The position numbers were made by a program, and so were the translations under genes. From positions 153,079 through 217,078 of the forward strand of contig JAFQAT010000017.1 of the NCBI GenBank assembly GCA_017399865.1: DNA of 64,000 nt. The letters run 5' to 3'. The number at the start of each line of letters is the position of its first letter. Within the stretch, counting starts at the first letter, position 1. The notes beneath the pieces are model-generated. The model searched no databases, had not been told where the DNA came from, and saw only the letters and a list, made by a program, of their open reading frames with translations. Origin of the DNA: Bacteroidales bacterium (lineage in GTDB: Bacteria; Bacteroidota; Bacteroidia; Bacteroidales; UBA932). Positions 10,068 through 15,263 of this stretch are shown here, piece after piece.

Positions 10068-10414
10068 GCCTTGGTGGTGGAATAGGTAGACACGCGGGAC
10101 TTTAAAGGGCAGACGAAACAGTTTGTCGTACAAGAGTGCCTCAAAGGAAACTTTGAGAGTAGAACTCCCCTAACAAACAGAAGCCTCGCTTGCAGAAATG
10201 CAGGTTTTGGTGATGGCTCACTAAGTTCGACATTGTCGATAAATGGCGTAGAGACTATACAGGGAGGGCCTAAACGCGTAAGCGCATGGTCAAGAAATAG
10301 TCCAGACTACAACGGCTTAACATCCAGGATGAAGCCGGCTTGTGTAAAAGCAAGAGTAGCAAGAAAATCCCGTGGCCAGAAATGGCCGTACGGGTTCGAT
10401 TCCCGTCCGAGGCA
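10068..10414 (+). tRNA. tRNA-Leu(UAA), split by an intron
   Basis: Exon 1 is 10068-10102 and exon 2 is 10364-10414, giving an 86-nt class II tRNA. Acceptor arms GCCTTGG and CCGAGGC pair over 7 bp with one G-T; A73 is at 10414 and CCA is not encoded. The joined anticodon stem CGGGA/TCCCG closes the loop CTTAAAA, so the anticodon is TAA (Leu). The variable arm GTGGCCAGAAATGGCCGTA and the T-loop GTTCGATTC are normal. The 261-nt interruption falls exactly between anticodon bases U34 and A35. A strong terminator follows at 10419. Confidence 0.93.
10103..10363 (+). ncRNA. Group I self-splicing intron in tRNA-Leu(UAA)
   Basis: The 261-nt insert between U34 and A35 obeys the group I rule: the 5' exon ends in T and the intron ends in G (10363). 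The conserved core is visible. The R-like segment GTAGAGACTATAC is at 10248-10260 and the S-like segment AAGAAATAGTCC is at 10292-10303. GACTA (10253-10257) pairs with TAGTC (10298-10302) as P7. GNRA-capped hairpins include CTCAAAG-GAAA-CTTTGAG (10140-10157), TGCA-GAAA-TGCA (10191-10202) and CGC-GTAA-GCG between the two P7 strands. Site, length and the 3' end (AGCAAG before AAAATCC) closely resemble the cyanobacterial and plastid tRNA-Leu(UAA) introns, which are about 250 nt. No homing endonuclease frame is present. I have not folded the whole molecule. Confidence 0.92.
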
Positions 10415-10418
10415 CATT

Positions 10419-10454
10419 AATCCCTTGTAATCGTTTGATTATAAGGGATTTTTG
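10419..10454 (+). terminator. Terminator of tRNA-Leu
   Basis: AATCCCTTGTAATC (10419-10432) pairs with GATTATAAGGGATT (10437-10450) with one internal G-T, followed by a T-run. A typical intrinsic terminator starting 5 bases after the tRNA. Confidence 0.85.
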
Positions 10455-13498: not shown

Positions 13499-13519
13499 AT
13501 CCCCGATCAGGTCGGGGAT
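13499..13519. repeat. REP-like palindrome
   Basis: ATCCCCGA-tcagg-TCGGGGAT, followed by GAC. It is the same family as the palindromes at 11506, 11560, 13647, 13760, 14109, 14260 and 59670, with different arm bases. Its right arm is the beginning of the 22-bp tandem array. Confidence 0.8.
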
Positions 13520-13641
13520 GACTGCTGGACAGGCCCGGGATGACTGATGGATAAGTCGTGGATGACTGATGTACAGGTCGGGTATGACTGCTGTACAAGT
13601 CGGGGGTGACTGGCGGATAAGTCGGGGTGACGGTTGGATTT
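13511..13641 (+). repeat. Tandem array of a 22-bp unit (six degenerate copies)
   Basis: Units start at 13511, 13533, 13555, 13577, 13599 and 13621 (the last is 21 bp). Each begins GTCGGG or a close variant, continues GATGACTG, and ends with RTAA or ACAG. The unit equals the right half of the REP palindrome plus its GAC flank and a short spacer, so the array looks like expansion of a half-REP. Confidence 0.85.
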
Positions 13642-13646
13642 ATGAG

Positions 13647-13668
13647 ATTGCCGGTCGCAGCCGGCAAT
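13647..13668. repeat. REP-like palindrome, identical to the copy at 11506
   Basis: ATTGCCGG-tcgcag-CCGGCAAT; identical to 11506-11527 including the AG before it and GAC after it, 2.1 kb away on the other side of the lipoprotein gene. Confidence 0.85.
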
Positions 13669-13680
13669 GACTGGTGGGCC

Positions 13681-13781
13681 GTCATGTTCGGCTGTTTCGT
13701 CATGATCGGCTGTTTCGTCATGATCGGCTGTTTCGTCATGCTCGGTTGTCTGTTTCGTCATGCCCGGCTCCGACCGGGCAT
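13681..13781 (+). repeat. 18-bp tandem half-REP array ending in a full palindrome
   Basis: Units at 13681, 13699 and 13717 are 18 bp (GTCATGATCGGCTGTTTC and variants), then a 22-bp variant at 13735, then a complete REP ATGCCCGG-ctccga-CCGGGCAT at 13760-13781. The repeated piece is the left half of the REP, so this array and the 22-bp array expand opposite halves. Confidence 0.85.
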
Positions 13782-13784
13782 CTC

Positions 13785-14093
13785 TCATATTAGGTCAGGG
13801 TCATCAATAATACTATGTGACAAATCCTCCCATTGGGGATTCAAGGTGTCTACAAGTTGATTCTTCCATTCTCTTTTAAAGTGCTTCAGTTGTTTTTCTC
13901 TTGCGATTGCCTGTTCAATAGACGGAAGTTGCTCGAAGTATACCAGTTTGTTGCAGTTGTATTTCGATGTGAAGACAGAGCCGTGGCCTTCAAAATGTTC
14001 TCTTGCTCGTCGTTTAAGTGAGTTGGTTATTCCGGTATAGAGGACCTTGTTGGTCTGGTTGGTCATGAAGTATATGTAGCCTTTCTTTTGCAT
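13785..14093 (-). CDS. GIY-YIG nuclease-superfamily protein
   Basis: I start at the Met at 14093 (MQKKGYIYFMTNQ), giving 102 residues. The longer frame starting at 14129 would translate the REP palindrome itself into its first dozen residues, which is unlikely to be real. The core is diagnostic: GYIYFM and LYTGIT stand for GIY and YIG, followed by the Arg-rich helix NSLKRRAREH and the catalytic-type Glu in AIAREKQLKHFKREWK. The family (YhbQ/URI-like, single-domain) cuts DNA or is of unknown activity. The gene is enclosed by palindromes of one family on both sides (13760-13781 and 14109-14129), and the RAYT transposase follows at 14331. That context suggests a role in repeat mobility or that both were captured by the repeats. 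Confidence 0.85.
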   Translation of the reverse strand: MQKKGYIYFMTNQTNKVLYTGITNSLKRRAREHFEGHGSVFTSKYNCNKLVYFEQLPSIEQAIAREKQLKHFKREWKNQLVDTLNPQWEDLSHSIIDDPDLI

Positions 14094-14108
14094 GGTCTTT
14101 GGGTTTAG

Positions 14109-14129
14109 ATGCCCGATCAGGTCGGGCAT
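14109..14129. repeat. REP-like palindrome upstream of the GIY-YIG gene
   Basis: ATGCCCGA-tcagg-TCGGGCAT, 15 bases before the ATG of the GIY-YIG gene, followed by GAC as in other copies. Confidence 0.85.
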
Positions 14130-14158
14130 GACGGATGGACAGAGATGACTGGTGGGTC

Positions 14159-14281
14159 GTCATGCCCGGTTGTTTGTTTCGTCATGCCCGGCTGTTTCGT
14201 CATGCCCGGCTGTTTTGTCATACTCGGTTGTTTTGTCATACTCGGTTGTTTGTTTCGTCATGCCCGGCTCCGACCGGGCAT
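14159..14281 (+). repeat. Second 18/22-bp half-REP array ending in a full palindrome
   Basis: Units start at 14159 (22 bp), 14181, 14199, 14217 (18 bp each) and 14235 (22 bp), each beginning GTCATGCCCGG or GTCATACTCGG, then a complete REP ATGCCCGG-ctccga-CCGGGCAT (14260-14281). The terminal palindrome and its TCTCT flank are the same as at 13760-13785. The arrays bracket the GIY-YIG gene. The remaining 14282-14330 holds nothing recognised. Confidence 0.85.
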
Positions 14282-14330
14282 CTCTTAGGACTGCGCCTGT
14301 CCAATAAACGCCTTTCCTGTGACGGGAAAC

Positions 14331-15263
14331 TTAAGGAAAGAGTTCTTCCAAGACAGACAGGTCCATCCGGAGCATTCTTCTGAGTTGTTGGTTGGTGGCG
14401 TTGTAGCCAAAGTGCATATGGCGGGCGGTGTCGATCTTTTGTTGGGCGCTGAGTTGAGATGGCGACTTGATTGAGTACTCTTTGCTGATGTGTGAACATA
14501 TGACCGAGTAGAGTTCTTCGTCGGTCAGGAAGATGGAGTCTTTCAGCCTTGATGCGATCTGACTGAATGCTTCTGCATTGCGGGTGAGTGAATTGAAGTA
14601 GCTTCGTGCATCCCTGAACATGCTTTCTCCGAGTTTGATGTCGCAGAAAGAAGGGATGAATGGTATGGAGTCGATTACTTTTAAATCCTTGAATGGTGCT
14701 ATTTTCTTTGTATGTAGCAGGGCCCGTTGGGTCAGGATCGGCAATTCTCCTAATGGTGTGGTTGTCAGGTGCTTCAGCCAGGGACAGAAATATGCACAGC
14801 CTCCGCCCCATGGGTATGAGTCAGGAGTATATGACGGGTTGGATACAAATGCATTTCGATTGGCGTATATGATTTCGTTGCGTAGTGCCTGGAGGCTTTC
14901 AATAGGAAGGATGTCCATTTTAAACTTACTCCAGTCGATGACACGTTGTCTTTTGGGGAACGCCTGTCTGAGTCTCGCTGCAAACAGATCAAATGCTTTA
15001 ATGCATTCCTCCCGTTGCCCGGCCAAGATAAGGTGGACGTGATTGCCCATCAATTCAAAGGTGAGTGCTCGCACGGGTTTGCACAGGTGCAGTGCCGAAG
15101 CAAGGCACCACATTCCTACTATAAAGTCCTCTTCACAGCAGAAGATGTTCTGCATCTTTGTTCCGTCAGTATACACATGCCAATACGGACCGTTCGCGAT
15201 AAAGATACTTTCGCAAATTCTCTCCTTCTCTGAAAAACTCAGAGCACTAAAATCCTTCTTCAT
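14331..15263 (-). CDS. RAYT-type (Y1, IS200-like) HUH transposase
   Basis: A 310-residue protein with the layout of REP-associated tyrosine transposases. The HUH motif is N-H75-V-H77 in LMGNHVHLIL, followed by an Arg-rich helix (FDLFAARLRQAF). The candidate catalytic Tyr is Y133 in RNEIIYANRNAF, and a SYPWGGG segment about 20 residues later matches the family's YPWSS motif. Such proteins nick and join single-stranded DNA at REP hairpins and are usually single-copy, domesticated genes. The C-terminal 150 residues are longer than in typical RAYTs and include a helix-turn-helix-like end (TNQQLRRMLRMDLSVLEEL). It sits next to several palindromes of one REP family, the expected substrate. No IS ends are evident, so I call it a RAYT and not an active insertion sequence. 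Confidence 0.8.
   Translation of the reverse strand: MKKDFSALSFSEKERICESIFIANGPYWHVYTDGTKMQNIFCCEEDFIVGMWCLASALHLCKPVRALTFELMGNHVHLILAGQREECIKAFDLFAARLRQAFPKRQRVIDWSKFKMDILPIESLQALRNEIIYANRNAFVSNPSYTPDSYPWGGGCAYFCPWLKHLTTTPLGELPILTQRALLHTKKIAPFKDLKVIDSIPFIPSFCDIKLGESMFRDARSYFNSLTRNAEAFSQIASRLKDSIFLTDEELYSVICSHISKEYSIKSPSQLSAQQKIDTARHMHFGYNATNQQLRRMLRMDLSVLEELFP

Follow-up and report, generated by a model that had tools for sequence, protein, structure and literature searches.

The tRNA-Leu(UAA) introns of cyanobacteria and plastids belong to group I subgroup IC3, lie exactly between U34 and A35, and are similar in length to the intron described here. In the cyanobacterial tRNA-fMet intron, the endonuclease is I-Ssp6803I, which is a PD-(D/E)XK rather than an HNH enzyme. 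As far as the text available to us extends, a 2014 review names only cyanobacteria and alpha- and betaproteobacteria as bacteria with group I introns in tRNAs, and states that the cyanobacterial and plastid tRNA-Leu introns share one site (PMC4033280); in the available part of a second paper the cyanobacterial intron sits in the UAA anticodon (PMC5733544). Among the matches listed in our literature search, we recognised no description of tRNA group I introns in Bacteroidota. In phages, introns were described in the tRNAs of the Lak megaphages, which are Prevotella phages, and were said there to be unreported in phage tRNAs before (Devoto 2019; PMC6784885). The accessible part of that paper calls them enigmatic, tests them with Rfam, does not use "group I" in its main text, and lists one intron (tRNA-Tyr) for B1 and B2 and two, not named there, for C1. 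A 2026 survey, available in part, describes tRNAs with intronic sequences from 262 genomes of recoded jumbo phages (PMC13037316).

We analyzed a window of 64,000 nucleotides from a Bacteroidales genome whose genus we infer to be Cryptobacteroides. The window carries an interrupted tRNA-Leu(UAA) gene, and the insertion is very probably a functional group I ribozyme that carries no HNH and descends from a mobile (homing) intron aimed at the anticodon of this tRNA. ARAGORN run without introns found no tRNA in the window; with introns allowed, it called a forward-strand tRNA-Leu(UAA) at 10068-10415. The initial annotation had placed a group I intron in this gene, and the ARAGORN call together with covariation in the intron's family bears this out; its gene span (10068..10414) had the correct start and ended one base early. 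The 259 nt excised by ARAGORN would leave a 9-nt anticodon loop, whereas excision of 261 nt (TAAAGGG..GCAAG) restores the normal 7-nt loop CUUAAAA, as in the uninterrupted copies of congeners, and we therefore took the intron as 261 nt. This agrees with the cut between U34 and A35, the length, and the terminal G that were first proposed, and both P7 halves were found inside the R- and S-like motifs as annotated (Table 1). The U.G pair of P1 at the 5' splice site and the terminal G also occur in relatives. From ARAGORN and the restored loop, the gene and the UAA anticodon are those of the cyanobacterial introns, as had been noted (PMC5733544, in the part available).

Two kinds of ARAGORN calls were discarded: an overlapping reverse-strand tRNA-Ala, obtained only at relaxed score, and the labels tRNA-Ser, Phe, Gln, and Stop at some intron loci, which we took to be boundary errors once stem and loop had been read, in part by eye. 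Elsewhere in the window, positions 13508-15263 hold a cluster of 18-22 bp tandem repeats with small proteins; by eye, these resemble a GIY-YIG protein (13785-14129, reverse strand) and a REP-type transposase (14331-15263, reverse strand). A stretch 80% similar to the REP-type transposase lies near the tRNA of locus L033.

Table 1. Features of the interrupted tRNA-Leu(UAA) gene, with the predicted helices of its type A ribozyme (window positions)
Feature	Position	Strand	Remarks
tRNA-Leu(UAA) exon 1	10068..10102	+	Ends at U34 (..GGGACTT); ARAGORN and uninterrupted congener copies L004, L012, L013
P1 5' strand ACUU, in exon 1	10099..10102	+	Pairs with GAGU 10134-10137, U.G at splice site
Group I intron, type A ribozyme	10103..10363	+	261 nt, without endonuclease gene
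P1 loop with short hairpin	10103..10133	+	Holds HNH frame in relatives
P2 hairpin CUCAAAG-GAAA-CUUUGAG	10140..10157	+	
P3 5' strand	10165..10169	+	Partner 10262-10266; 5/5 pairs compensated
Atypical P4 (10178-10179/10214-10215) and P5	10178..10215	+	Sequence alignment
P5 pairings	10183-10185/10209-10211 and 10189-10194/10199-10204	+	
P6 (10216-10217/10248-10249) and P6a (10227-10231/10235-10239)	10216..10249	+	
P7, GACUA 10253-10257/UAGUC 10298-10302	10253..10302	+	
P8 (10267-10270/10288-10291) and P8b (10275-10277/10282-10284)	10267..10291	+	3/4 and 3/3 pairs compensated
P9 region closed by CUAC 10307-10310/GUAG 10356-10359	10307..10359	+	
tRNA-Leu(UAA) exon 2	10364..10415	+	Starts at A35; sequence and ARAGORN
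Terminator-like hairpin and T run 3' of the tRNA	10420..10453	+	By eye

Two main ribozymes occupy this one site within the genus, type A (the window's) and type B. The Rfam model RF00028 gave no match to the window at the gathering threshold or at E<=5, and none at E<=1 in the 13 type A loci tested (L001, L002, and 11 more). It matched all six type B loci tested, three of them at or above gathering, and gave a weak match (37 bits) to a third variant, type C (L053; P3 GCAGG/CCUGC). Type B introns share with type A the site, the P1 strand (GAGUG being retained in relatives of both types), the HNH in the P1 loop, and the S/P9 region, but they are unlike type A from P3 to P6, are matched by RF00028, and carry HNHs of a separate clade. 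The motif GAGCCAAGCC, which we take to be an IC3-like Q motif, is present in type B and absent from the window core; the likeness in site and length to the cyanobacterial introns is for this reason no evidence of descent here.

Relatives drawn from congeners, MAG contigs, and IMG/VR gave 75 core-motif loci (43 distinct), of which the 33 with a P8 short enough, window included, make up alignment A1. With A.C scored as unpaired, 94.8% of 1,145 cells (35 proposed pairs) were paired, compared with 75.9% in 500 shuffles. There were 245 two-sided changes (80 shuffled), both sides changed in 23 of the 35 pairs (18.8 shuffled), and covariation was 0.563 (0.196 shuffled); slid controls gave 0.059-0.092, a comparison that partly favors this structure because it was drawn from the window and its relatives. 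Compensation extended to all six pairs of P5b and all five of P6a, and the predicted helices P3, P5b, P6a, P8, and P8b are well supported. The standard group I P4 helix has about six pairs; across the 33 aligned members, P4 has only two, one an invariant C-G and the other A-U, G-C, or C-G. P6, also with two proposed pairs, showed one-sided change only, and two pairs each in P4 and P6 is unusual for a group I core. The first P5 pair is standard in only 7 of the 33 and mostly A.C, and two more R-Y positions are mostly either G.U or A.C. P7 is invariant across A1, so covariation neither supports nor contradicts it. Of 79 distinct matches covering both types, 43 close P9 with UAC/UAG and 24 with CAC/UGG. 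The window's family thus has the conserved P3-P8 core expected of a group I intron.

The initial annotation had proposed an Rfam covariance search and held that failure to place P3-P8 would speak against the intron. The general model does fail to place them in the window, but covariation within the intron's own family places them, and the RF00028 miss is therefore taken as a gap in that model. The miss could also be expected of a decayed, non-splicing insertion in a pseudogene, with UUA read by another tRNA that the incomplete assembly might lack. We regard this explanation as extremely unlikely, given that the window keeps all 64 columns invariant in the other 32 A1 rows (still 64 of 64 with its two nearest relatives left out), that its exons fold as a complete tRNA, and that our survey of the genus found no uninterrupted copy, by pattern, in any of the 26 genomes of type A or C.

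That survey covered, by pattern searches, 400 genomes of the genus, including the window's own (G000). An uninterrupted tRNA-Leu(UAA) was present in 182 genomes and a core-motif intron in 139, and five had both (G071, G106, G177, G246, and G264; none of type A or C). By matched strings, the 139 comprised 117 genomes of type B, 20 of type A, and two of type C (G148, and G250 by matched string only). Four further type A genomes (G080, G207, G265, and, on a partial contig, G360) had cores that exceeded the length of the pattern or were truncated, which brings the intron to 143 of the 400; neither state was called in 80, many of them incomplete. The 26 genomes with type A or C include G063, G076, G130, G138, and G163, which are 94-99% complete, and the pattern with which no uninterrupted copy was found in any of them would miss diverged copies. 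In its own genome (83 contigs, 77.8% complete, so that a second gene could be missed) the window's intron was the one match, and no uninterrupted tRNA-Leu(UAA) was found by pattern. UUA is uncommon but in use: it accounts for 33 of 17,902 codons and appears in 18 of the 39 ATG frames of >=200 aa with little overlap. With no uninterrupted copy seen in the 26 genomes, splicing should be needed to read UUA, as the initial annotation had argued for the case that no second gene exists.

Uninterrupted alleles at the same locus, a mark of homing introns, were found in congeners (L004, L012, and L013). The window's tRNA flanks are common to interrupted L002 and L032 and to uninterrupted L012, which also has the window's upstream gene; in L004 and L013 the alignment to the window is limited to about 30 bp on the upstream side. 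The second mark, an endonuclease encoded by the intron itself, is absent: no trace of an HNH was found in the window or its intron, nor any HNH in the rest of its genome (78% complete), although an empty search of this kind, run without a positive control, says little. Relatives do carry one. Within flanks of 1.5 kb or less, 6 of the 24 type A genomes of the genus had an HNH frame in the P1 loop (G130, G252, G163, G076, G390, and a partial one in G267) and 3 of 24 had an HNH downstream of the tRNA. Several type B introns also have an HNH frame in the P1 loop, and HNH-bearing as well as decayed or HNH-less forms occur in both types. Broken frames or remnants were seen in L009, L011, L020, and L021, and the HNH-less L045 matches the HNH-bearing L042 at both ends of the P1 loop (by eye). 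In L032, L037, L039, and L113 (hosts G400, G063, G265, and, for L113, a MAG contig), a free-standing HNH gene follows the tRNA at a distance of about 95 bp and has its orientation. These four loci, with the HNH outside the intron and downstream of the interrupted tRNA, resemble the arrangement of collaborative homing.

PF13392 and PF01844 matched one type A HNH protein and two type B HNHs, one of the latter below the PF13392 cut-off. In a tree of 27 HNH rows, some partial, the A-linked and B-linked sets separate at 100/100; the free-standing HNHs 3' of type A introns fall inside the A clade, and so do the intron-borne HNHs of Prevotellaceae MAGs. At L051/L121, the tRNA is interrupted by a type A intron, but the HNH gene found upstream of it, on the other strand, is type B-like; the HNH beside L051 falls among the B proteins. 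The best match of the type A HNH was the phage family phrog_10822 (6.4e-44), and 216 phage records held something similar to it, 215 of them at <60% identity. For the type A HNH, no near match among solved structures was found; NCBIfam matches to IscB and ZorE, far below cut-off and due to the shared HNH motif only, were rejected.

Outside the genus survey, the type A pattern was found in 39 MAG contigs, a few of them type C-like or in other tRNAs. A type A model, run in Infernal with stricter filters, had matches in 3 of 364 genomes at order level and in 18 of 355 at phylum level, the window's own genome counted; the window, itself part of the model, scored 173.7 bits and the other matches 31-62 bits. 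The sixteen of these others that had a locus were inspected and lie in tRNA-Leu(UAA), tRNA-Ile(UAU), tRNA-Arg(UCU), or tRNA-fMet, with cores unlike type A. The ARAGORN label Leu was rejected for some Bacteroidota loci, which we read as tRNA-fMet. Loci L158 and L160-L165, of Bacteroidota family f156, hold group I introns with type B-like Q motifs in what by eye is apparently tRNA-fMet. Contigs titled Methanobrevibacter (L106) and Clostridium (L116, in tRNA-Lys) carry the intron family, and are possibly misbinned phage contigs. No plasmid copies of the window intron were found.

The initial annotation had offered an ancient shared intron or a transfer. Patchy presence in the genus, HNH-bearing forms, and same-site phage copies favor a mobile element over simple vertical descent, which narrows that choice. 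An ancient intron that reached cyanobacteria and Bacteroidota by vertical descent from a shared ancestor, with losses, and that was always immobile at its site, would fit the shared gene, the single site of cyanobacteria and plastids (PMC4033280, in the part available), and the tRNA-Leu(UAA) introns of other Bacteroidota. It accords poorly with two unlike ribozymes at one site within a genus, with the HNH-bearing forms, with an uninterrupted copy in 182 of the 400 genomes, and with the scarcity of type A matches at order and phylum level, and we consider it very unlikely.

A mobile intron may have moved between bacteria or come from phages. IMG/VR yielded 23 stretches matching the pattern for both types; their tRNAs were identified from the anticodon stem and loop by script or by eye, and where the script gave several candidates we took the candidate that showed the conserved end of the intron, not always the top one. 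The intron lies in tRNA-Leu(UAA) in L126, L127, L130, L131, L133, and L139, as well as in L143 (from its 3' part) and L145 (one base earlier). Other hosts are tRNA-Lys(UUU) (L132, L134), tRNA-Ile(UAU) (L138), tRNA-Asn(GUU) (L128), and tRNAs with a CUA anticodon (L137, L141, and L146; by eye L129, L135, L136, and L144); L140, L142, L147, and L148 were left without assignment, the ARAGORN label for L148 being Arg. Eight distinct phage cores are of type A (L126, L127, L129, L131, L132, L134, L135, and L137), and three of these are same-site copies in tRNA-Leu(UAA) (L126, L127, and L131). PHROG searches gave terminase or portal matches for L129, L137, and L144, less phage-specific protein matches for L127 and L131, and no match for the proteins tried from L126 and L134.

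In a core tree of 43 rows and 155 columns, with unsettled bootstrap and weak deep forks, L001, L002, and L031 group together (96/95) inside a clade at 94/99. This clade, the window's, is bacterial in 21 rows, of which 20 come from the genus and the last, L113, counts by likeness only; its single phage row, L137, is a long, composition-skewed branch. Elsewhere in the tree, L051/L052 of the genus join phage L127/L134 and also L116 (89/88), and at least two entries into the genus are thereby suggested. Entry into the chromosome from a phage tRNA-Leu gene, instead of spread from bacterium to bacterium, is a possibility that we hold at less than even odds: the same-site phage copies, the phrog_10822 match, and the L051/L052 grouping speak for it, while the window's clade sets 21 bacterial rows against a single skewed phage branch, and direction is unreadable from a tree of this size and bootstrap.

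The reading that we prefer, an intron descended from a homing element, implies the following course, in which we infer splicing chemistry, homing activity, and transfer direction. The pre-tRNA would fold with ACUU of the exon paired to GAGU as P1; guanosine would attack after U34, the freed exon 1 would then attack after the terminal G, and the joined exons would give the only tRNA-Leu(UAA) found in this genome. HNH-bearing relatives would cut uninterrupted tRNA-Leu genes, and repair would copy the intron in. The endonuclease could later decay or be deleted while the intron stays, since any cell that lacks a second copy depends on splicing it.

The CUA tRNAs of L129, L135, L136, L137/L141/L167, L144, and L146 are interrupted after U35 by the same intron family; L135 is without the terminal G, and in L136 and L144 four of five anticodon-stem positions pair. 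Reading UAG as Gln raised coding density by 0.23-0.35 in five of six CUA loci (L129, L135, L137, L144, and L146; L136 was too short to include), with no rise in L141 and a rise of 0-0.13 in ten non-CUA loci. As a control, reading UAA as sense raised density by up to 0.26 in both sets, the contigs being AT-rich, and UAG came out above UAA only in those five loci, by a small margin in L137 (0.80 vs 0.77). By these densities, the contigs with UAG-decoding intron tRNAs look UAG-recoded. L129 is the sequence of the RefSeq crAss-like phage cr115_1 over the intron (NC_055898.1, about 30.5-30.8 kb), where no tRNA is annotated; plain ARAGORN on cr115_1 (two halves) gave two Leu, one Arg, and a tmRNA, and no CUA tRNA. 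In-frame UAG codons number 7 in its terL, 12 in portal, 14 in gp09, and 17 in gp07, with none in the major head protein.

The Lak phages carry the family too: Lak-B1 has the CUA intron of L137, and Lak-C1 and Lak-B2 have a tRNA-Leu(UAA) with a type A-like intron. The model hit 16 of 16 phage records, which were picked for having the intron and several of which are inside the model. By eye, one tRNA-Leu(UAA) of Lak-C1 (L168) and of Lak-B2 (L169) seems to be interrupted twice by group I-like inserts, once in the D loop and once in the anticodon loop; in Lak-B1, B2, and C1 alike, the model hits come as an adjacent pair. In L171 (Dulem virus 42), a tRNA-Leu-like gene is split by an HNH frame, and no ribozyme core could be seen there; this HNH, annotated as a NinG recombination protein, has 53% identity to a Cryptobacteroides type A HNH over 82%.

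That some recoded crAss-like phages seem to have no suppressor tRNA was raised as an open point (PMC7886860, in the part available), and the phage copies offer a concrete account for some of them. A more speculative proposal, to which we give a minority chance, is that type A forms a group I subclass of its own, so far unclassified, in which the P4-P6 domain has been rebuilt, and that it dwells in anticodon loops and is traded with its HNH between the chromosomes of Bacteroidales and their phages. If so, in recoding phages it would sit inside the UAG-decoding tRNA and keep that tRNA out of sight of the usual tRNA scans, and its splicing could determine when the phage changes its code. Surveys will under-count type A introns, because the ribozyme is missed by the Rfam model and the gene by an intron-blind tRNA scan. 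With an essential decoding gene interrupted in 143 of 400 genomes of one genus, in states from HNH-bearing through HNH-less to absent, the cycle of invasion, decay, and loss of homing introns is testable among congeners.

Compared with the tRNA-Leu(UAA) introns of cyanobacteria and plastids, the window intron has the same gene, the insertion in the UAA anticodon (PMC5733544, in the part available), the U.G of P1, and the terminal G, but not their IC3-like Q motif, and RF00028 misses it. It also differs in having HNH-bearing relatives; the word "endonuclease" is absent from the main text, as far as available, of the cyanobacterial tRNA papers compared. The cyanobacterial tRNA-fMet intron is likewise mobile and of group I, and its endonuclease also targets the anticodon region of a tRNA, but the tRNA is a different one and the nuclease is of another family than the HNH found here. 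Our loci L167-L169 correspond to Lak-B1, C1, and B2 of the Lak study, and the UAG-decoding and Leu(UAA) introns of Lak-B1 and B2 look unreported in the part of it available to us (PMC6784885). Group I introns in bacterial tRNAs and introns in phage tRNAs were already known (PMC6784885, PMC13037316). Relative to the literature in the portions we could compare, what is new is the Bacteroidota host, a ribozyme type missed by RF00028, HNH-bearing forms in tRNA-Leu(UAA), and one intron family in both the Leu and the UAG-decoding tRNAs of phages.
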